Shown here: one piece after another, positions 2 to 20,171 of the stretch
Numbering within the stretch: position 1 is the stretch's first letter
Layout of the letters: every line of letters begins with the position of its first letter
Virus record (IMG/VR): IMGVR_UViG_3300020471_000271
Span: 1 to 22,216 of that record
Strand: one strand, 5' to 3'
DNA length: 22,216 nt
Origin: a virus
Program-made: the position numbers and the translations under genes
The notes under the pieces: model-generated
The model's database searches: none
What the model saw: the letters and a program-made list of their open reading frames with translations, nothing else
What the model was told of the DNA's origin: nothing

Positions 2-409
2 GATGTAGTAATACTTGATCATTTAACAATAGTTGTGTCAGGGATCTCTGACTTAGATGAAAGAAGAGCGTTGGATGTGGTCTGTACTAAGCTTAGACAG
101 GTGGTTGAATCTACTGGTATAGGTTTAATTATTGTCTCTCATCTGCGTAGGCCAGAAGGCAAAGGACATGAAGAAGGTAATAAGGTAAGTCTTAATCATC
201 TGCGGTCTTCTCATTCAATCGCACAGCTATCAGATCTTGTAGTTGCCTGTGAAAGAAACCAGCAGGGAGATGTAGCTGAAAGGGCAGAACTGCAACTACG
301 AGTGTTGAAGAATAGACATACAGGAATGACAGGTGAGATAGACAAACTATTGTATGACGATAAAACTGGAAGGTTGGTACTTCCTTTAGACACCTACTTT
401 GGAGACTGA
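2..409 (+). CDS. Primase/helicase, C-terminal part (T7 gp4-like), cut by left window edge
   Basis: This is the final 135 residues of a hexameric replicative DNA helicase of the T7 gp4 type, which unwinds the fork for the phage replisome. The frame is open to the left edge, so the GTG at 35 is internal and not the start. The first visible residues, DVVILDHLTIVVS, match the Walker B/H2 strand of T7 gp4 (ILDHISIVVS). SHLRRP (about residues 50-55 of the visible part) and HEEG follow. ERNQQGD is the H4 DNA-binding motif, and VLKNRHTG is the strand carrying the arginine-finger region in gp4. The primase half and Walker A motif lie outside the window. The stop TGA shares a base with the exonuclease ATG. 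Family assignment is very secure. What is unusual is the downstream neighbour, since T7 has DNA polymerase here. Confidence 0.95.
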   Translation, partial: DVVILDHLTIVVSGISDLDERRALDVVCTKLRQVVESTGIGLIIVSHLRRPEGKGHEEGNKVSLNHLRSSHSIAQLSDLVVACERNQQGDVAERAELQLRVLKNRHTGMTGEIDKLLYDDKTGRLVLPLDTYFGD

Positions 410-1140
410 TGACTTTATTAATTGATGCTGATTGGCTGATCTATTCCTCATGCTGTGCATGTGAACAGGATATACGTTGGGATACTAATCTACACACACT
501 TCATGCTGATGAAAGAGATGTACACGAAATGGTAGATGGCAGAATATCTCATTATCAAACTATCGCTGAAGGTGATAAAGATGTTGTTATGTGTTTCACA
601 GAATATCCAACCTTTCGACATACGATCTATCCAGAATATAAAGCTAATAGAAAACATAAAAGAAAACCATTAGGGCTAGGAAAGATTATTGAACAGACAA
701 AAGAACGGTATCAATCTGAAAGCTACTCAGGTCTAGAGGGTGATGATGTTATGGCTGTACTTGCCACCAGTAAGAAATATCCTGATCCTATTATTGTGTC
801 AGTTGATAAAGACATGAGATCTGTACCCTGCACACTGCTTGCAGGTGATGATATGGAACTTATAACCAAACGTAAGGCTGATAGACATTGGATGATCCAG
901 GCTCTTACAGGTGACTCTACTGATAACTACTTTGGTATAGATAAAGTAGGACCAGTTACAGCAGAAAAGATATTAGGTGAAGCGAAGACACTTGAACAAA
1001 TGTGGGAGAAGGTAGTAGCTGCTTATGAGAAAAAGAAATATAACTTTGCTGATGCTGTTCTTAATGCACAACTGGCAAGGATATTAAGAGATGAAGACTT
1101 TGATTTTAAAACAGGTGAAGTGTCATTGTGGACTCCATAA
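409..1140 (+). CDS. 5'-3' exonuclease (T7 gp6-like, FEN/PIN fold)
   Basis: This 243-residue nuclease of the FEN/5'-3' exonuclease family would, like T7 gp6, remove primers, degrade host DNA and assist recombination. The acidic metal-binding residues fall where expected: D6 and D8 in LLIDADWL, E110-D112-D113 in LEGDDVMA, D133 and D135 in SVDKDM, and D169 and D172 in GDSTDN. YPEYKANR (74-81) is the characteristic helical-arch motif. GIDKVGPVTAEKIL (176-189) is the helix-hairpin-helix/H3TH DNA-binding element. It is shorter than T7 gp6 (300 aa), but all catalytic blocks are present. The start ATG overlaps the helicase stop (TGATG), with GGAG at 401-404 as a ribosome site, so the two are co-translated. 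It is the last gene of the replication block, before a 177-base non-coding gap. Confidence 0.93.
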   Translation: MTLLIDADWLIYSSCCACEQDIRWDTNLHTLHADERDVHEMVDGRISHYQTIAEGDKDVVMCFTEYPTFRHTIYPEYKANRKHKRKPLGLGKIIEQTKERYQSESYSGLEGDDVMAVLATSKKYPDPIIVSVDKDMRSVPCTLLAGDDMELITKRKADRHWMIQALTGDSTDNYFGIDKVGPVTAEKILGEAKTLEQMWEKVVAAYEKKKYNFADAVLNAQLARILRDEDFDFKTGEVSLWTP

Positions 1141-1180
1141 AAAAACACCTACCTACGAACCGTAAGGCAAGTGTCTTTCC
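1139..1180 (-). terminator. Strong intrinsic terminator on the minus strand
   Basis: Read on the minus strand, ACACTTGCCT pairs with AGGTAGGTGT over ten consecutive pairs (1145-1154 with 1165-1174, eight Watson-Crick and two G-U). After a bulged base at 1164, ACG/CGT adds three more pairs, closed by a GTT loop (1158-1160). Seven T residues (minus strand, positions 1145-1139) follow the stem, and the GGAAAG before the stem can pair into that T run. On the plus strand the two wobble pairs become A-C mismatches and the stem is followed only by CTTTCC. The structure is therefore built to stop transcription moving left, against all the genes here; weak action on rightward transcripts leaving the exonuclease gene is possible. 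Confidence 0.65.
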
Positions 1181-1240
1181 GTGTTTAGAAAAGTTCTAAA
1201 TCCACTCCCCGATGATCAGCACTTCATTAGAACTTACAAT
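1139..1240 (-). ncRNA. Candidate minus-strand structured small RNA (two hairpins plus terminator)
   Basis: On the minus strand a perfect 9-bp inverted repeat (AAGTTCTAA at 1235-1227, TTAGAACTT at 1199-1191) encloses a 27-base G-rich loop. A short linker leads to the terminator hairpin at 1174-1145 and its U7 tail. Two consecutive hairpins ending in a proper terminator is the anatomy of an independent small RNA or of the end of an antisense transcript. A possible minus-strand promoter is TTGATA (1284-1279), 17 bases, TAAATT (1261-1256). It has only a fair -10 and would place the 5' end near 1250. No known RNA family was recognised. The presence of the structure is clear; that it is a discrete RNA is inference. 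Confidence 0.38.
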
Positions 1241-1244
1241 TACC

Positions 1245-1273
1245 TTATCACATAAATTTAAAGCTGCTATACT
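1245..1273 (+). promoter_or_regulatory. Extended -10 sigma70-type promoter for the virion gene block
   Basis: TTATCA at 1245-1250 (4 of 6 to the -35 consensus) lies exactly 17 bases from TATACT at 1268-1273 (5 of 6 to the -10). The -10 is preceded by TGC, giving the extended -10 form TGNTATACT. Transcription would begin near 1280, about 40 bases before the first small structural gene. It is the best promoter-like element I see in the largest non-coding gap and sits where the replication block ends. It resembles a host sigma70 promoter. I cannot tell whether a phage RNA polymerase promoter also lies in this gap. Confidence 0.5.
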
Positions 1274-1317
1274 TTATTATCAAAAGTGAACTACAATACT
1301 TATAAATCTTATTAATC

Positions 1318-1732: not shown

Positions 1733-1954
1733 ATGTGTTTAGCAAGTCAAATAGCTCGACCTGTAATAGCAAGTCAAGCACCAAGAAATGATGCTCCTGT
1801 TGTGACAGGAAGGCAACGCAATGTCCTTGATCCTATTGACACTTCAAAAGTTACAGCACGTTTAAAGAAAAAAAGATCAGATGAAAGGTTTGCACAAGGC
1901 CAAAGAAATCTTTCTGGTAAAGGTAGATCACCACTGGATCTCAAAATAATGTAA
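1733..1954 (+). CDS. Small basic protein before portal (73 aa), possible gp6.7/7.3-type virion protein
   Basis: This is a 73-residue basic, probably poorly ordered protein of unknown function. It starts MCLASQIARP, so like its neighbour it has Cys at position 2. It is rich in Arg/Lys in the second half (ARLKKKRSDERF, about 43-54) and ends GKGRSPLDLKIM, a basic-then-hydrophobic tail of the same general style as the preceding protein. GAGGT at 1721-1725, seven bases before the ATG, is a good ribosome site. The stop overlaps the portal start (TAATG at 1952-1956), so translation of the portal is probably coupled to it. A virion or assembly role is inferred from position between exonuclease and portal, where T7 has genes 6.7 and 7.3. 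Confidence 0.75.
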   Translation: MCLASQIARPVIASQAPRNDAPVVTGRQRNVLDPIDTSKVTARLKKKRSDERFAQGQRNLSGKGRSPLDLKIM

Positions 1955-3540
1955 TGGAGTATTCAAACCAACAAGGACAAACTGCTGCTGGTAGATATGC
2001 ACAACTTCAAAGTTCAAGATCTACCTTTGATAGAGAAGCAAAGGAATCATCAAAGCTAACCATTCCTAGTCTTATTCCAGAAAGCACAACAGGTACAAGG
2101 GCAAAGATTAAAACCCCTTTCCAGGCTGTAGGAGCTAGAGGTGTTAATAGTCTTGCTTCAAAACTATTATTTGCATTACTACCACCATCAACCAGTTTCT
2201 TCAAACTTAGTATTGATAGTCTTGAACTTTTAAAACAAGGACAGGAAGGGTTAGAGACAGAGATAGATAAAGGATTACGCACAATAGAAACAGCTTTGAT
2301 GAATGAGATAGAGATCTCTAACGACAGGGTGGCAATGTTTGAAGCACTCAAACACCTCATTGTTGGAGGGAATGTTCTTCTCTATCTCACAGATGACGGA
2401 TTGAAAGTATATCCACTATCAAAGTTTGTATGTAAAAGAGATGCTGTTGGTAATGTATTGGAAATAATCACACAGGAATCAGTAAGCCCTAATGCCCTTT
2501 CACCAGAGTTCTTAGAACAGATCAAGAAGAAAGAGAACTATGATGAAAAGACAATGGATAGTGACCTTGATATATACACATACGTCAAAAGAGTAAATGA
2601 TGACTTTATGTGGTATCAGGAATGTAAAGGAGAAAAGATACCTGGTACTGATGGCAGATCAAAAGTAGATGTATCACCTTGGATAACACTCAGGTTTGTT
2701 CGTATTGATGGTGAAGACTACGGTAGAGGATATGTAGAAGAATACAGAGGAGACTTAATAAGCTTAGAAGCCTTGATGCAAGCGATAATAGAAGGTGCAG
2801 CAGCTTCAGCTAAGACTATATTCCTTGTAAATCCTAATGGTGTAACCAGAGCAGCAACACTAGCCAAAGCTCCTAACGGTGCTATTAGAGAAGGATCTGC
2901 TAATGATATTTCTGTCATGCAAGTCAACAAGGGTGCAGACTTCCAAGTATCTTTTTCTGCCATACAAAGAATTGAATCAAGACTTGAATATGCTTTTCTC
3001 ATGGCACGTTCTGTACAGAGAGATGCAGAAAGAGTGACAGCAGCAGAAGTTACCATGATGGCTAATGAATTAGAGAATAGCTTAGGTGGTATCTACAGCA
3101 TCCTTACACAAGAGTTTCAACTACCATATCTAAGACGTAGGATGCACATGCTTGTCCGATCAGGTAAAGCACCGAAGCTACCAGAGAAATTAGTAAAACC
3201 TAAGATTGTTACTGGGGTTCAAGGTCTTGGTCGTGGTAATGATCGTAATAAGCTTATTGAATTTATCGGAACAGTAAGTCAAGCTTTAGGTCCTGACATC
3301 ATGCGACAGTACATGAATGTCGATGAAGCTATAAAACGGTTGGCAACTTCTATAGGAATAGATACTGCTAACCTAGTGAAGACACAGGAAGAGATACAGA
3401 ATGAGATGGAAGCTATGCAACAGCAGCAGCTTATTCAAAGTCTTGGACCTGCTGCTCTTGGATCACCATTACTTGATCCTAAAAACAACGCACAAGCACA
3501 ACAACTAGCGGAGGAAACCAATGCCGAACAAGAAGTCTAG
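1954..3540 (+). CDS. Portal protein (head-tail connector, T7 gp8-like)
   Basis: This 528-residue portal is close in length to T7 gp8 (536). It would form the dodecameric ring at one capsid vertex through which DNA is packaged and ejected. It nucleates scaffold-directed head assembly and binds the tail-tube gatekeeper. GRYAQLQSSRSTFDREAKE at the N-terminus and ARGVNSLASKLLFALLPPS (61-79) then SFFKL are hallmark segments of this family. The C-terminus is Gln-rich and helical (NEMEAMQQQQLIQSLG), as expected for the barrel/crown. The gene has no Shine-Dalgarno and starts inside the previous stop (TAATG). Its last 20 bases overlap the next small gene and carry that gene's ribosome site. Confidence 0.95.
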   Translation: MEYSNQQGQTAAGRYAQLQSSRSTFDREAKESSKLTIPSLIPESTTGTRAKIKTPFQAVGARGVNSLASKLLFALLPPSTSFFKLSIDSLELLKQGQEGLETEIDKGLRTIETALMNEIEISNDRVAMFEALKHLIVGGNVLLYLTDDGLKVYPLSKFVCKRDAVGNVLEIITQESVSPNALSPEFLEQIKKKENYDEKTMDSDLDIYTYVKRVNDDFMWYQECKGEKIPGTDGRSKVDVSPWITLRFVRIDGEDYGRGYVEEYRGDLISLEALMQAIIEGAAASAKTIFLVNPNGVTRAATLAKAPNGAIREGSANDISVMQVNKGADFQVSFSAIQRIESRLEYAFLMARSVQRDAERVTAAEVTMMANELENSLGGIYSILTQEFQLPYLRRRMHMLVRSGKAPKLPEKLVKPKIVTGVQGLGRGNDRNKLIEFIGTVSQALGPDIMRQYMNVDEAIKRLATSIGIDTANLVKTQEEIQNEMEAMQQQQLIQSLGPAALGSPLLDPKNNAQAQQLAEETNAEQEV

Positions 3541-3667
3541 TACAAAAACTTCAAACCCTGATACAGCAAAAGCTGTTGTCAGTAAATTAGGTGTTAATGA
3601 CGAACCTACTTCTTACGAACCTAAAGTGGTCAAAACTAAAAATGGTCGTACAATTACTCTTAACTAA
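3521..3667 (+). CDS. Small protein overlapping the portal 3' end (48 aa)
   Basis: An uninterrupted 48-codon frame starts at ATG 3521, inside the last seven codons of the portal gene and in another frame. GGAGG (3510-3514), a near-perfect ribosome site six bases upstream, decides the start. The product begins MPNKKSSTKTSNPDTAKAV, is Ser/Thr/Lys-rich, and ends with a compact KNGRTITLN strand-like tail. It has no recognisable domain. It fills the whole space between portal and scaffold, and ends 13 bases before the scaffold ATG. The strong ribosome site and snug fit argue that it is real; a head-assembly role is only positional inference. Confidence 0.72.
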   Translation: MPNKKSSTKTSNPDTAKAVVSKLGVNDEPTSYEPKVVKTKNGRTITLN

Positions 3668-3680
3668 CTAAATACTATTT

Positions 3681-4478
3681 ATGACTTCATCCCAGGTAAA
3701 TGTCTCTGAGACACCTCCAATGTCTCAACAGGATTTAGAAACATTAGCGAAGAATGAAACTGATGAGAATGGTCTTATCTTAGGTAAGTTCAAATCAGTA
3801 GAAGATCTAGCTGCCAGTTATAAAGAACTTGAAGGTAAGCTAGGACAGGTAACAGAAGAAGATCAACCACAATCAGAAGAAGAAACAGAGACTACTGATT
3901 CAGAATTTAATGCTGAAGAATATTATGGCGATGGTCTTGCTTCTGTATTAGAAGAAGTTGGTATCGATCCACAGGAAATATCAGAAAGGTTTTATAACGA
4001 TGATGGTATTTCAGAAGATGATTACGCAAAGTTAGGAGAAGCAGGGTTCTCCAGACAAATCATTGATACCTACCTTGATGGATTAAGAGGTGGTGGTCAA
4101 TCAGAAGATATTGCTTCTAATCAAATACAAGGTATTAAAGATTCAGTTGGTGGTGATGACAATTACAGTAAGATGGTTGCATGGGCTTTAGAGTCATTAC
4201 CTGCTGAAGAAGTTAAAGCTTTCAATGACTTGACTGAAACAGCAAATGCACCTGCAATAAAACTTGCAGTACAAGGTCTTTATTCTCAATACAATAATGC
4301 TATGGGTGTTGAACCAAGTTTAGTATCAGGTAAGGCTTCATCAAGTGGACCTACACCATTCAGATCAACAGCAGAAGTAGTTACTGCTATGTCAGATCCA
4401 CGCTATGGTAAAGATGTTACATACACCGAAGATGTACAAAGACGCTTGGGTGGTAGTGACGTGTTCACTGGTCGTTAA
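3681..4478 (+). CDS. Capsid assembly scaffold protein (T7 gp9-like)
   Basis: This 265-residue acidic protein should act as the internal scaffold that guides polymerisation of the capsid protein around the portal and then leaves. Placement between portal and capsid genes is diagnostic. The segment GLILGKFKSVEDLAASYKEL (31-50) followed by EGKLG is the helix seen near the N-terminus of many phage scaffolds. A strongly acidic linker (about 58-80, EEETETTDSEF) follows, then predicted helices, and a basic C-terminus containing DVQRRLGGSD, where scaffolds contact the capsid protein. T7 gp9 is 307 aa, so this is slightly short. No Shine-Dalgarno is evident at the start. The stop is followed by TT-ATG of the first of six small genes. 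Confidence 0.9.
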   Translation: MTSSQVNVSETPPMSQQDLETLAKNETDENGLILGKFKSVEDLAASYKELEGKLGQVTEEDQPQSEEETETTDSEFNAEEYYGDGLASVLEEVGIDPQEISERFYNDDGISEDDYAKLGEAGFSRQIIDTYLDGLRGGGQSEDIASNQIQGIKDSVGGDDNYSKMVAWALESLPAEEVKAFNDLTETANAPAIKLAVQGLYSQYNNAMGVEPSLVSGKASSSGPTPFRSTAEVVTAMSDPRYGKDVTYTEDVQRRLGGSDVFTGR

Positions 4479-5574: not shown

Positions 5575-5694
5575 ACTTAACAAAACGAAAATCTTAATAT
5601 CAATAGTGCCTGATGCGTCAGATAACACTTGAGAGAACAGACAGTAGTGAAGTTAGTTTCTCAAATTATTTAATCAACCTAAAGGAATTTAATT
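5575..5694 (+). promoter_or_regulatory. Structured leader of the capsid gene
   Basis: These 120 non-coding bases hold two hairpins. The first, 5605-5629, has an outer AGTG/CACT stem and an inner CTGA/TCAG stem closed by a TGCG loop. The second, 5629-5664, pairs TTGAGA-g-AAC with GTTTCTCAA around a 17-base loop. AAAGGA at 5681-5686, eight bases from the ATG, is a good ribosome site left unpaired. No convincing -35/-10 pair was found. The hairpins may stabilise or process the highly expressed capsid mRNA, as 5' stem-loops do around T7 gene 10, but neither is followed by a T run, so they are not terminators. Confidence 0.4.
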
Positions 5695-6681
5695 ATGGCT
5701 AACGCCACAGTTTCACGCCTGGGTTTGGTGAACAATACAGGAACAGACTTTGATGCTCTGTTTCTGAAAGTATTCTCAGGAGAAGTTCTTACAGCCTTTG
5801 CTCGTAACAACATCTTTAATGAGCAACTACACTCTGTTCGCACGATAACCTCAGGTAAATCAGCACAGTTCCCAGTAACAGGAACAGCTACGGCGGCTTA
5901 TCATAGTCCAGGCACACCATTAGTAGGTGCAAACCAGATCTTGGCAAATGAGAAGATTATTTCTATTGATGATCTACTTATTTCACAAGCTTTCGTAAGC
6001 AATTTAGATGAGCTTAAGAATCACTATGACGTAAGGGCTACATACGCTGATGAGTTAGGTAAGGCTCTTGCCAAAACTTATGATCAGAACGTAGCTAAAG
6101 TAATTGCTAATGCTTCAAGAGCATCTACAACACTTACAGGTGGTAGTGGTGGGATCACAGCTACTATGGCTTCTGGTAACACAACCTCTGCTGCTGTATC
6201 AGGTGATGAACTAGCTGGTGCTATCTATGATATTGCACAGACAATGGACGAAAGAGACATTCCTCCAACAGATCGTTTCTGTGTTTTACCACCTGCTGAG
6301 TACTACAAACTAGCTGAGTCTGCTACAAGAACAGTAGATGTTGACTTCAACCCAGGTGGTAATGGTTCATTTGCATCAGGTCGTGTACAACAGGTTGCTG
6401 GTATTCCAGTAATGATGAGTAACAACGTACCTCAGACAAACGTATCATCTAACCCAAGTGGAGCTAACAACGCTTACAACGGTGACGATAGTAAAACTAT
6501 TGGTCTTGTCTTCCATAAATCAGCAGTTGGTACTGTAAAGTTGATGGACATGACAACTGAAATCTCTGGTTCTGACTATGGAATCATGTATCAAGGTACA
6601 TTGATGGTTGCTAAGTATGCTTTAGGTCATGGAATCCTAAGACCTGAGTGTGCAGCTACTATTAAGCTTGCTGCTTCTTAA
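5695..6681 (+). CDS. Major capsid protein (T7 gp10-like)
   Basis: At 328 residues (T7 gp10A is 345) this is the HK97-fold shell protein. Its N-terminal arm, MANATVSRLGLVNNTGTDFD, then ALFLKVFSGEVLTAF, and TITSGKSAQFPVTGTATAAY are hallmark segments of podovirus capsid proteins. The E-loop-like stretch (HSPGTPLVGANQILANEKII) and the C-terminal LMVAKYALGHGILRPECA, typical of the family's last strand, are intact. Position after scaffold and microproteins, its own leader with a good ribosome site, and a dedicated terminator directly after the stop all fit the most abundant virion protein. No slippery frameshift site producing a gp10B-like extension is visible before the stop. Confidence 0.96.
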   Translation: MANATVSRLGLVNNTGTDFDALFLKVFSGEVLTAFARNNIFNEQLHSVRTITSGKSAQFPVTGTATAAYHSPGTPLVGANQILANEKIISIDDLLISQAFVSNLDELKNHYDVRATYADELGKALAKTYDQNVAKVIANASRASTTLTGGSGGITATMASGNTTSAAVSGDELAGAIYDIAQTMDERDIPPTDRFCVLPPAEYYKLAESATRTVDVDFNPGGNGSFASGRVQQVAGIPVMMSNNVPQTNVSSNPSGANNAYNGDDSKTIGLVFHKSAVGTVKLMDMTTEISGSDYGIMYQGTLMVAKYALGHGILRPECAATIKLAAS

Positions 6682-6688
6682 TTCACAT

Positions 6689-6720
6689 AAAGGGTACTCA
6701 GCAATGGGTACTCTTTTTCT
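6689..6720 (+). terminator. Intrinsic terminator after the capsid gene (T-phi position)
   Basis: The octamer GGGTACTC occurs at 6692-6699 and again at 6706-6713. It is a direct repeat, but the two copies can pair antiparallel over all eight bases (six Watson-Crick, two G-U) around the loop AGCAAT. AAA before and TTTTTCT after the stem complete a classic rho-independent terminator. On the minus strand the wobble pairs become A-C mismatches, so it acts on rightward transcripts. It lies eight bases past the capsid stop, the same place as T-phi in T7, and would lower expression of tail genes relative to capsid. Confidence 0.82.
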
Positions 6721-11080: not shown

Positions 11081-13548
11081 TGACTAATAGTTTTCAAAGC
11101 ACCGCCTTTCAACCTCAAGCAAGTCCTGTAGATACTTTTGTTCGACCTGTATCTGTGCAACCTAAAAGTGGTATTGAGTCTTTAGCTGAAACACTTGCTG
11201 TTGTAAATCCTAATATTCAAAAGTTTTTAGGTACTAAAATTGAAGATGCTATTGATGATGAAAAAACAAAATTTCAAAATTTAGCAATACAAGAAGATTT
11301 GCTTAATGGTGTTTTTGGAAATATTGTTACTGAAACAAGAAAAACAGAAGGTCAAGAAGCTGCTGATCAACTTATAGGTGCTTCTGTTATTGGTAAAAAA
11401 GCCTACGCTAAACAAAAACTTATAAACTCTACTTTTCAAATAGAAAATCTTTTACAACGTAGATATAAAACAGACACAGTTGATATTGAAAATGAAGATG
11501 GGTCTATTACAAATACACCTTTAAATCAAGTTTCTCCTGATTCAGCAGAATTTAAAAATTGGTTTCAAGGAATTATTAATCCTGTAATAACTAATATATC
11601 TGCTGATAGTGATTCGGAAATTATTAATAAATTTGTTTTACCACAACTACAAAAATCAATAATTAATTTAGATACAGAAGCTAGAAAACAATTTAATACT
11701 TTTAACAAAAATAGATTGTTACAAGAAAGCACAGATACTGTTAATACTGCTGCAAAGTTTTTTATAAAAGCACAGACATATAATTTTAGAAGTCCAGAAA
11801 CAAAGCAGGCTATGGAAACTGATTTAAAAAATAATCTTTCTAATTTAATTGTTAATATGAAAAATGCAGGTATTACAGGTAGTGACCTAACAACACTAAA
11901 CGAAAACTTGATAGATAATATTGTAAATATTGGTAATTTATCTGTTACTCAAGGTCAGTTTAACTATGCTCGTAAGCTAGTAAATTTCTTAGGTAACTCT
12001 ATACCAGGTTCTTCACCTGGAAAAACATTAAAAGATAATCCTAAATGGCTTGAAAAAACAACAAATTTTTTTACTGATTTATATGAAAAAGAAGTAGACA
12101 TAGCTTTAAGACCAGAAAAACTACGCAATGCACAAAGAAGAAACTCTTTTAATACTCAAATTGAAGATTATCGTAATGAGAAAGATCCAATAGTAAGAAG
12201 TCAAAAGTATGAAAAACTTAAATTAGATTTTCCAGAGAAAGAATTTCAAACAGATATTGATGAATTTGGTGTTCTTGATAATAAAACCTTTACTGAAAAA
12301 GCTAATGAGTTTAAAAAACAATTAAGAAGAGGTCAGTATTTAGTTGATGGTGAACCAGATAAAGGAAGTGCTTTTCTTCAGCTAGATGTCATAGAACGTC
12401 TAGATCCTACCCCAGATTCAGAAAGTCAAGAAGTACTTGAAGATTTAGAAAAACGCATAAACGAAATGAAAGGTTATTCAAAGGATATTGAAAAGTTTGA
12501 AACAAAAATAATGAATGATGCAAAATCAGCATTAAGCAAAAAAAACAGATTTGCTGGCAGAAGTTTAAGTAATAAAGATGCCAAACTATTACAACGATAT
12601 GAAAGGATTTTACAAGATGAAGCTGATGAAAGAATGGATGAGTTTGAGGAAGAGAATAATAGACCGATGACTTTAAGAGAAGCAAAAGAAATGTACAGAG
12701 ATTTAGATAATCTCTTAAAACTTGAACTTGGAGTTTTTACAGAAAGTGAAGCAGGTGTGAGGATTCCACAAGCTGATGCTATTGGTAAACAAGGTAAAAT
12801 AGAAAATCCATTTACAGCAGCAGACAGAAAGAAAAATCCGATACAGCAATCAAATCAACCAGTAAATCAATCAACAAACGAAACCTTAAAAGACCCTTCT
12901 TTTGATATACCAAAATTAAAAGATCAAGCTTCTAACAACCAAACTACAGACAATCAAATAGTAAGTGACATGACCCCTACAGGTCTTGGGGCAGAGGATG
13001 GAGATCTGATTGCTATGGCAAGAATAAATCAAAATACAAATAAGGAGAATGATTTGACAGAAAAAGAACCAGCAATATTAAGAACTGGAAACGGAGTAAC
13101 AAGAATGGAAACAAACTTTCCAATAATTTATAACTTAGCAAAAGAAATAGGTATTAAATTTCCAGAAGTTGTAGCTGCTCAATTCGGCCTAGAGTCTGCT
13201 CATGGAGAAAAAGAATCAGGCAAGAATAATTACTTGGGTATTAAAGCAACACAACAAGAAATAGCTGATGGGAAAGCTACATTGCGTAAAACAAAAGAAA
13301 TTATTAATGGTAAAGAAGTTCTTGTTGATGCCTACTTTAAGAATTTTGATTCAATAAGAGATATGTTATTGCAATATAAAAAAGAATGGAATGATGATTT
13401 CTTAGATAGAAAAGGAACTATTAATGTCAATACAGCAGAAGAAGCTATTCAAAGATTAAAAGATAATAAATATGCTACAGATCCAGATTATGTTAAAAAG
13501 GTAATAAGTGTTATAAAAAGTGCTAAAACCAATCCTCCACTTTTCTAG
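11080..13548 (+). CDS. Internal virion protein C (gp15-like) with C-terminal GH73 peptidoglycan hydrolase domain
   Basis: At 822 residues (T7 gp15: 747) this has the long helical, charged body of an ejection-channel protein. A polar Asn/Gln/Thr-rich linker (about 590-640) leads to a C-terminal enzyme domain at about 668-818. There, FPEVVAAQFGLESAHGEKES (694-713) carries the catalytic Glu705. NNYLGIKA (716-723), AYFKNFDSIRDML and YATDPDYVKKVISVI (798-812) are the remaining conserved blocks of the FlgJ-like/GH73 N-acetylglucosaminidase family. It would cut peptidoglycan as the channel crosses the wall. In T7 that job is done by a lytic transglycosylase at the N-terminus of gp16. The start overlaps the previous stop (TAATG) with no ribosome site. 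Confidence 0.88.
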   Translation: MTNSFQSTAFQPQASPVDTFVRPVSVQPKSGIESLAETLAVVNPNIQKFLGTKIEDAIDDEKTKFQNLAIQEDLLNGVFGNIVTETRKTEGQEAADQLIGASVIGKKAYAKQKLINSTFQIENLLQRRYKTDTVDIENEDGSITNTPLNQVSPDSAEFKNWFQGIINPVITNISADSDSEIINKFVLPQLQKSIINLDTEARKQFNTFNKNRLLQESTDTVNTAAKFFIKAQTYNFRSPETKQAMETDLKNNLSNLIVNMKNAGITGSDLTTLNENLIDNIVNIGNLSVTQGQFNYARKLVNFLGNSIPGSSPGKTLKDNPKWLEKTTNFFTDLYEKEVDIALRPEKLRNAQRRNSFNTQIEDYRNEKDPIVRSQKYEKLKLDFPEKEFQTDIDEFGVLDNKTFTEKANEFKKQLRRGQYLVDGEPDKGSAFLQLDVIERLDPTPDSESQEVLEDLEKRINEMKGYSKDIEKFETKIMNDAKSALSKKNRFAGRSLSNKDAKLLQRYERILQDEADERMDEFEEENNRPMTLREAKEMYRDLDNLLKLELGVFTESEAGVRIPQADAIGKQGKIENPFTAADRKKNPIQQSNQPVNQSTNETLKDPSFDIPKLKDQASNNQTTDNQIVSDMTPTGLGAEDGDLIAMARINQNTNKENDLTEKEPAILRTGNGVTRMETNFPIIYNLAKEIGIKFPEVVAAQFGLESAHGEKESGKNNYLGIKATQQEIADGKATLRKTKEIINGKEVLVDAYFKNFDSIRDMLLQYKKEWNDDFLDRKGTINVNTAEEAIQRLKDNKYATDPDYVKKVISVIKSAKTNPPLF

Positions 13549-17984: not shown

Positions 17985-20171
17985 ATGGCTACTAACACTG
18001 CTGCATCTTTTACAAACCATACTGGTAATGGTACTGCTGGTCCTTTCAGTATCTCCTTTTCCTATCTATCAGAAGCTGAAGTTGATGTTACGGTTGGTGG
18101 TGTCTTAAAAACTCTTACCACACATTACACTTTCACCAGTGCTACGCAGATTACATTTACCAGTGGTAATGAACCTGGTAATGGTGTTGCTATTAATATT
18201 CAACGAGATACAAATATAACTGCTAAAAAAGTAGATTTTAATGATGGTTCTGTTTTAACAGAATCAGATCTTGATACACAAAATGATCAGATACTATTTG
18301 CAGTACAGGAAAACTTACGCAAACTAGACACTATAGAAGAGAGTGCAACAGGAGATCAAACAGCAGCAGAAATTAGAACCTTAGTAGAAAGTGCAACTGA
18401 TAGTAATGTCTTTACCGATGCTGATCATACCAAACTTAACAACATAGAAGCTTCTGCTACAGCAGACCAGACAGCCAGTGAAATAAGAACTCTTGTTGAA
18501 AGTGCCAGCGATAGTAACGTGTTTACTGATGCAGACCATACAAAATTAAACGCTATTGAAGCTAATGCAACTGCTGATCAAACTAACTCTGAGATAAAGA
18601 CAGCTTATGAAGCAAACAGTGATACCAATGCTTTTACAGATGCTGAAAAAACTAAATTATCAGGTATAGAAACAGGTGCTGAAGTAAATCCTACTAATGC
18701 TGAAATTAAAACAGCTTATGAAGCAAATAGTAACACTAATGCTTTTACAGATGCCGAGAAAACTAAACTTGCAGGTATAGAAGCTTCAGCCACAGCAGAT
18801 CAATCTAATGCTGAAATTAAAACAGCTTATGAAGCAAACTCAGATACTAATGCTTTTACAGATGCCGAGAAAACTAAACTTGGTAATTTAGGATCTTTAA
18901 ATGCTTTATCAGATGTAAATACTTCTGGTGTCGCTGATGGCAAGATACTTAAATATGATGCTTCTGCATCTAAATTTATTATTGCTGATGATGGTGGTTC
19001 TGGTGGTGGTGGAGCTTCAGCTTTTACTGGCTTGTCTGATACCCCTGCAAACTTTGGTGGTGCAGCAAGTAAAACTGTAAAGGTAAACGCTGCTGGTAAC
19101 GCTCTTGAGTTTGTTACTGTATCTACTGATGTTGTTGACGATACAACCCCACAACTAGGTGGTAACTTAGATGTTCAAACAAATGAAATAACAACAAGCA
19201 CTACTAACGGTAATGTAAAACTAACTCCTGATGGTACAGGAAAAGTAGAAATAAAAGGTAATGGTAGTAATGATGCTCAAGTAGTTCTGAACTGTAGTAA
19301 TAATAGTCATGGTCAAACTATTAAAGCACCTCCTCATAGTGCTGGTGTAAGTAACACGTTTACTTTACCAACTACTGCTACTGCTAATTTAGGTGGAGGT
19401 GGTGGTTTACTAAAAGTTGTTCAATCTGGTCAACTTAGTTTTGATACAAATAGTTATGTAACAAATACTCAAAGTCAATTTATTGTTTCTAGTGGTCAAA
19501 ATATTGAATTTGGTCAAAATAATTTACTAAAATTTGATACTGATAACACCAATGGTTTTAATATAAGTTTTAAAGGGCCAAATAGTTTAACAAAAACAAG
19601 TGCATATACATTACCTGAAGATGGCAGTAACGGACAATTTTTAAAAACTAATGGCAGTGGTGTATTAAGTTTTGATACTGTTGATTTATCTGCCAAAATG
19701 AACAAAGCAGGTGACACAATTACAGGTGATGTCACTATCGCTTCTGGTACAACAAACAAAAATATTAATATAGATGTTGATAGTAAAATTAGATTTGACG
19801 ATGATTTAAAAGCTACATTTGGAAATGGTGATGATCTGCAAATTTACCATGATGGTTCTCACAGTTATATTGATGATAATGGTACAGGTAATTTAAAAAT
19901 ACAACTTGGTGGTGCAACAAAAGCAGAAGTTGTTTCTACTGGATTAACCGTAACAGGAACATTAACTGCTACAGCTTATGCAGGTGATGGGTCAGGTCTT
20001 ACAGGTATTGCATCAACGGTAGCTGGTGGTGCTATCTATGAGAATAGTGCTACTATTAGTTCAACTCACACCATTGCATCAGGTACTAACGGAATGAGTG
20101 CAGGTCCAGTTTCCGTCAGTAGCGGAGTTACCTTAACTATCAGTTCTGGTAGTGTCTATACAGTAGTTTAA
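17985..20171 (+). CDS. Tail fibre (T7 gp17-type N-terminus, 728 aa)
   Basis: This is a host-recognition fibre. Residues 1-120 form the T7-type tail-anchoring domain: SISFSYLSEAEVDVTVGGVL, then HYTFTSATQITFT, and KKVDFNDGSVLTESDLDTQN (about 82-101), which parallels VDFTDGSILRAYDLN in T7 gp17. Residues 123-307 are five 37-residue repeats. A Gly-rich linker follows, then beta-rich blocks ending with FGNGDDLQIYHDGSHSYIDD and AYAGDGSGLTGIAS, which are frequent in marine phage fibres, and a Ser/Thr-rich C-terminus (TISSGSVYTVV) probably forming the trimeric tip. The anchor domain implies this fibre binds the tail directly; the next fibres may attach through it. It starts two bases after the gp16-like stop (TAA-TC-ATG). 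Confidence 0.9.
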   Translation: MATNTAASFTNHTGNGTAGPFSISFSYLSEAEVDVTVGGVLKTLTTHYTFTSATQITFTSGNEPGNGVAINIQRDTNITAKKVDFNDGSVLTESDLDTQNDQILFAVQENLRKLDTIEESATGDQTAAEIRTLVESATDSNVFTDADHTKLNNIEASATADQTASEIRTLVESASDSNVFTDADHTKLNAIEANATADQTNSEIKTAYEANSDTNAFTDAEKTKLSGIETGAEVNPTNAEIKTAYEANSNTNAFTDAEKTKLAGIEASATADQSNAEIKTAYEANSDTNAFTDAEKTKLGNLGSLNALSDVNTSGVADGKILKYDASASKFIIADDGGSGGGGASAFTGLSDTPANFGGAASKTVKVNAAGNALEFVTVSTDVVDDTTPQLGGNLDVQTNEITTSTTNGNVKLTPDGTGKVEIKGNGSNDAQVVLNCSNNSHGQTIKAPPHSAGVSNTFTLPTTATANLGGGGGLLKVVQSGQLSFDTNSYVTNTQSQFIVSSGQNIEFGQNNLLKFDTDNTNGFNISFKGPNSLTKTSAYTLPEDGSNGQFLKTNGSGVLSFDTVDLSAKMNKAGDTITGDVTIASGTTNKNINIDVDSKIRFDDDLKATFGNGDDLQIYHDGSHSYIDDNGTGNLKIQLGGATKAEVVSTGLTVTGTLTATAYAGDGSGLTGIASTVAGGAIYENSATISSTHTIASGTNGMSAGPVSVSSGVTLTISSGSVYTVV
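18351..18905 (+). repeat. Five tandem 111-bp repeats inside the tail fibre gene
   Basis: Units at 18351-18461, 18462-18572, 18573-18683, 18684-18794 and 18795-18905 each encode 37 residues with the pattern (A/G)DQTxxEI+TxxExxxDxNxFTDAxxTKLxxIExxAT. Units 1 and 2 resemble each other, as do 3-5. Units 4 and 5 are almost identical in DNA over most of their length, so duplication there is recent. Unit 5 diverges after TKL. Such repeats make the extended shaft of the fibre, and recombination between copies could alter its length. Confidence 0.92.

Follow-up and report, generated by a model that had tools for sequence, protein, structure and literature searches.

Why should a phage genome segment whose recognised genes all run rightward carry, at the boundary between its replication and virion genes, a strong transcription terminator that faces left? 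The window considered here (the whole stretch of 22,216 nucleotides that was analysed) is a 22-kb IMG/VR piece of a T7-like marine podovirus, in which the end of a primase/helicase gene, an exonuclease (409-1140, plus strand, stop codon TAA at 1138-1140), small genes, portal (1954-3540, plus), scaffold, major capsid (5695-6681, plus) and tail genes follow each other rightward. This gene order bears out an initial annotation, made from the sequence alone, which had placed a minus-strand feature among otherwise all-plus genes at the replication/virion boundary. By exonuclease comparison, the closest isolates are Prochlorococcus P-SCSP1 phages (61% amino-acid identity), and a T7-type RNA polymerase gene was found in 12 of the 12 larger relatives examined. 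We consider the site to be probably best explained as a non-coding small-RNA gene, in our best reading an accessory and possibly trans-acting locus; the narrower proposal that window positions 1250-1139 of the minus strand make up a small-RNA gene appears somewhat firmer still.

Read on the minus strand, positions 1174-1145 spell ACACUUGCCU-U-ACG-GUU-CGU-AGGUAGGUGU and fold into a hairpin (1145-1174) with 10 unbroken pairs, a one-base bulge (1164), 3 further pairs and a 3-nt loop. As the initial annotation had claimed, these pairs form in full only on the minus strand, and the plus strand gives A-C mismatches and no U run: two of the ten stem pairs are G-U (1170-1149 and 1168-1151), whose plus-strand counterparts are A-C. 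The seven U that it had seen following the hairpin are indeed a run of seven (1145-1139, minus), of which the first is the outermost stem base, so that six come after the stem. On the opposite strand lies the exonuclease stop codon (1138-1140), within which the U run begins. A G+C-containing stem followed by a U run is what defines an intrinsic (rho-independent) terminator, and such a terminator is predicted here. The region 1139-1240 folds on the minus strand with -30.4 kcal/mol (z -3.3; 1 of 200 shuffles equally good), and on the plus strand with -14.8 kcal/mol (z -1.3). A strict terminator scan of the whole window returned two only, one on the plus strand behind the major capsid gene (6689-6716), the other on the minus strand at 1145-1174. 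The latter is the sole strong terminator that faces left, both here and, by the same scan, in the complete relative G001; a separate consensus scanner reported just the inner part of the 1145-1174 stem.

The direction of this terminator was further examined among 101 distinct sequences downstream of the exonuclease, which yielded 52 distinct terminators whose strict Watson-Crick cores were picked strand-blind and then extended. The minus fold is the more stable in 52 of 52, wobbles amount to 102 minus-only vs 6 plus-only, and in every case the U run of the minus strand (7.2 long on average, never below 4) is longer than the T run of the plus strand (2.5 on average), the U run being a feature that the initial annotation had proposed to look for in related phages. 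Its proposed search for compensatory changes also came out in favour of the minus strand as regards the terminator stem: in 21 base helices (gap-free alignment, loops swapped for one fixed tetraloop) 98.9% of the cells are paired on the minus strand vs 83.1% in the plus reading of the same helices, and 27 cells changed on both sides vs 7.7 in shuffles. Counting 27 distinct 9-bp base helices, 241 of 243 cells are paired on the minus strand, with a mild bias since partner positions were picked for best minus pairing; the relatedness of the sequences inflates all these covariation and pairing counts. The stems fall in several unlike sequences (CACTTGCC, CCAACAGC, CACTAGCA, CCAGTAAC, CACTGGTG) and thus do not represent a single inherited stem, and the terminator is sometimes doubled (L018, L054, L061, L063 and others). 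Judged by its sequence, the terminator is an element with one functional direction, the minus.

Upstream in that direction lies a conserved block, ATTTATGTGATAAGGT (1242..1257, minus; position conservation 0.93-1.0 over most of its length), which holds a putative extended -10, TGATAAGGT (1250-1242), composed of TG (1250-1249), A (1248) and the hexamer TAAGGT (1247-1242), a weak match to TATAAT. The hexamer occurs as TAAGGT, TAAGCT or TAACCT, with T1, A2, A3 and T6 constant, in a script-made tally that left out L003 and L013, whose blocks are present. The core TGnTAAnnT is common to unit-bearing loci, and only hexamer positions 4-5 vary within it, which is the pattern expected of an extended -10. 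No conserved -35 for the leftward block was seen among unit-bearing loci, and the automatic hexamer-to-first-helix distance, being unclean, was excluded from the evidence. TTTATGTGATAAGGTG matched 39 stretches in a scan of IMG/VR; of these, 37 lie at the exonuclease-downstream locus and 2 in unrelated sequence. Relatives without the terminator are also without the block (L023, L026, L029, L030, L032, L035-L038, L074 and others), L050 has kept the block and lost half of the terminator, and the outgroup phages, which mostly have a DUF3310 gene at the site, lack the block and in most cases keep a rightward TGnTATACT. Since the block is lost with the terminator, and the rightward -10 is kept without the block, the block belongs to the leftward unit; the absence of this unit from several lineages makes it dispensable. 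A T7-type phage RNA polymerase promoter is not favoured for the block, which occurs as a single copy per complete genome checked and resembles the Syn5 sequence ATTGGGCACCCGTAA merely loosely. Its reading as the -35 of the late promoter was rejected as well, since the rightward -10 persists in relatives and outgroups that have no such block.

That rightward extended -10, TGCTATACT (1265..1273, plus), which belongs to the late genes, is kept in most relatives and outgroups, leftward unit present or not. Other features were also recorded along the rightward genes. The motif TATCAAWAGTG, a candidate phage RNA polymerase promoter, stands at window positions 1278-1288 and 5598-5608, ahead of the first late gene and of the major capsid gene, and is also found in G001 and, partly altered, in G007. 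The sequence GTGAACTACAATA (window 1286-1298) is the GTG start of a small late gene in outgroup phages; in the window it lies upstream of the annotated ATG (1318) with an in-frame stop, and is a possible relic or upstream reading frame. Positions 5588-5680, ahead of the major capsid gene, are nearly identical in G001, contain inverted-repeat sequence (including CCTGATGCGTCAG and CTTGAGAGAAC) and may be a structured leader, and direct repeats of 111 nt (37-aa repeats) occupy 18320-18874 within a probable tail-fibre gene. In two relatives, an attachment-site-like tRNA 3'-end fragment, GTCGTGCCGGTTCGAGTCCGGCCACTCGCACCA, is situated just upstream of the RNA polymerase gene (L085 112-144; L091 19055-19087); no exact match to it was found in the genome collection searched, and one Planctomycetota genome matched by a degenerate pattern was not accepted as host.

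Between block and terminator, the window holds a 5' structured module (1191..1235, minus) at the position where relatives hold other modules, and the linker AAACACGGA (1178..1186, minus), which separates module and terminator and is common to many relatives. The module is the perfect 9-bp hairpin with a G-rich loop that the initial annotation had pointed out, and the sequence matches that description exactly (1235-1227 with 1199-1191; loop of 27 nt); its arms being perfect complements, the stem is uninformative on strand in this sequence alone. An extended -10 at 1250-1242 would set the start at 1236-1234, at the base of the 9-bp stem (1235), giving a predicted minus-strand RNA of ~97 nt (about 1235-1139). 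The ORF list of the window includes no minus-strand frame of at least 50 aa overlapping 1139-1240, and no 21-mer of the module in the window recurs exactly in any other IMG/VR contig.

The content between block and terminator differs among relatives, and includes short hairpins, folded RNAs of 60-100 nt and tandem arrays. Module A reads AAGCAATAG...CTCTGTNGGA...CTATTGCTT on the minus strand; the consensus fold of six such sequences contains 11 pairs, 8 with compensatory changes, its outer stem being missed through misalignment. Module B, possibly a pseudoknot, carries AACCC in a loop and GGGUU downstream, which on visual inspection have changed in step in L013. Module C (~100 nt), module D and others are likewise found in the middle position, and modules are combined in tandem as B+A (L013), B+C (L004), D+C (L112) or A+A (L027). 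The folding energy of the long modules is about equal on both strands and does not decide between them; the strand of the middle modules is assigned from where they lie, from promoters and from a small number of wobbles. L033 and L034 have a minus-strand gene for a zinc-ribbon-like protein of 52 aa between the exonuclease stop and a leftward terminator; its homologues (best E 1e-5) come from marine phages, some of them T4-like cyanophages. Five loci (L239, L240, L242, L243 and L245) show an extra leftward hairpin (AAAACCTCAAG...CTTGGGGTTTTC) upstream of their module-A array, which suggests a second small RNA gene in tandem.

The modules are also present outside this clade. A second lineage, with an exonuclease 58% identical, has two module-A copies and a terminator at the same site; the intact TGATAAGGT block is absent from it, and TGTTATATT stands seven bases ahead of the first module. 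Module C (core GGTCAGCCAACCTCTCTCTGATGCGGACTA) appears in unrelated marine phage contigs without this exonuclease, near tail-spike, tail-fibre or other phage genes (L246 ~3560-3920; L247 6470-6850; L248 ~690-880; L249 ~12720-12870), adjoined by module A-like RNAs in L246, in the order A-like, C, A, and in L247. Promoter-like sequences with the same geometry were seen by eye ahead of the modules in these other phage contigs, and a scan found a single CTGACA-16-TATAAT match, directly before module C in L249. Two helices of module C, compared over six sequences, have 66 of 66 cells paired and 8 changed on both sides vs 1.8 in shuffles.

The initial annotation had recognised no described family in the hairpins, and the searches agree with it: the Rfam 15 covariance models found nothing with E ≤ 1 in the scanned loci, module C is not in Rfam 15, isolate phages searched by BLAST with the locus and its modules yielded nothing meaningful beyond the exonuclease gene itself, and ARAGORN found no tRNA or tmRNA. 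Among known systems, the lambda OOP RNA is a small phage RNA from the minus strand that has a promoter and a terminator to itself and is antisense to the cII end. The predicted RNA is similarly short, ends at a terminator, and opposes its neighbours beside replication genes; unlike OOP, it would end at the exonuclease stop and cover no coding sequence, so the overlap with a target coding sequence that marks OOP-type cis-antisense action is missing, and its middle is exchangeable. Morons, accessory phage genes with their own promoter and terminator, share with the unit an independent putative promoter and terminator, swapped content and dispensability, and two contigs have a protein gene at the site; the cargo, however, is mostly structured RNA rather than protein. 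T7 and Syn5 resemble the window and its relatives in their T7-type RNA polymerase gene, rightward genes and forward terminator after the major capsid gene, and neither is known to have a leftward unit at the corresponding place. In the Prochlorococcus isolate P-SCSP1u there is no gap at the site, where the next rightward gene overlaps the exonuclease end. The Syn5 cyanophage polymerase read through a T7 hairpin terminator (PMC3950665); if the polymerase of these phages behaves alike, the host enzyme would be the likelier user. Folded RNAs of marine phages also include wcaG, manA and PhotoRC-II, Rfam families from cyanophages and marine metagenomes described for the most part as leaders of metabolic or photosynthesis genes (PMC2864571), from which the present unit differs in standing alone with its own terminator.

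Of the two options offered by the initial annotation, a small regulatory RNA or a guard against antisense transcription, the small minus-strand RNA is favoured by the strand-specific, covarying terminator and the near-invariant extended -10. The guard on its own, an insulator blocking stray leftward antisense to exonuclease and helicase beside an incidental second hairpin, fits a terminator placed exactly at the exonuclease stop, occasionally doubled and constrained for the minus strand only, and we regard it as unlikely: it explains the terminator, but not the near-invariant block with its TGnTAAnnT pattern, the joint loss of both elements, the structured modules at the same place, their recurrence behind promoter-like sequences elsewhere, or the minus-strand gene in two contigs.

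Quite improbable, in turn, is a cis-acting leader, that is, a riboswitch-like or attenuator module belonging to a leftward gene that most phages have lost and L033 and L034 still have. The 52-aa gene downstream of a terminator in these two loci would suit such a leader, as would the description of the cyanophage wcaG, manA and PhotoRC-II RNAs (PMC2864571), but in nearly all loci the terminator is followed by no leftward gene, and mixed-module arrays and positions in other phages are unlike leaders of one gene family. A plus-strand or bidirectional terminator, ending replication-gene mRNAs ahead of the late promoter, would be well placed for the end of a middle transcript and could draw on the short plus-side T run of some relatives and on the 83% pairing of the plus reading; the unanimous preference of energy and U run for the minus strand, the excess of minus-only wobbles, and the mismatched, U-less plus strand of the window itself make it very improbable. 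Slighter still is the chance of a DNA-level element, such as a recombination site or mobile hairpin with RNA folding as a by-product: cassette-like swapping and the similar folding of the long modules on both strands would agree with it, but a DNA element would come under no selection for G-U bias, U runs or promoter geometry, which are traits of RNA.

Returning to the small-RNA gene, from the terminator direction, covariation, promoter-like block, joint presence and absence, and module exchange we infer transcription, its start site, the polymerase and action in trans as follows. An RNA polymerase, most likely that of the host, would use TGATAAGGT (1250-1242) to start leftward where the 9-bp hairpin begins, copy the hairpin module and then the AACACGGA linker, and be halted by the hairpin-U7 terminator right on the exonuclease stop codon, leaving the exonuclease reading frame without an antisense copy. 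The RNA might then bind, for example, a host or phage protein or RNA. Two things make trans-acting accessory cargo its most likely role, one that we advance tentatively: phages exchange the middle but retain promoter, linker and terminator, and the RNA would have no overlap with the exonuclease frame or with the expected late mRNA.

The promoter element and the module exchange, both absent from the initial annotation, are the more interesting part of the locus. They lead us to propose, as a conjecture, that T7-like and other marine phages have a dedicated locus for an exchangeable array of stand-alone structured RNAs, a moron-like system whose trans action would probably be directed at host functions or defences; with similar reserve, at least four families of the array, not in Rfam, would form part of this RNA-moron reading. 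The programmes of small tailed phages are commonly regarded as consisting of proteins throughout. If the proposal is true, RNA cargo would join the means of marine phage adaptation, through a site that swaps folded RNAs in the manner of accessory genes, and several new RNA families would become available for testing.
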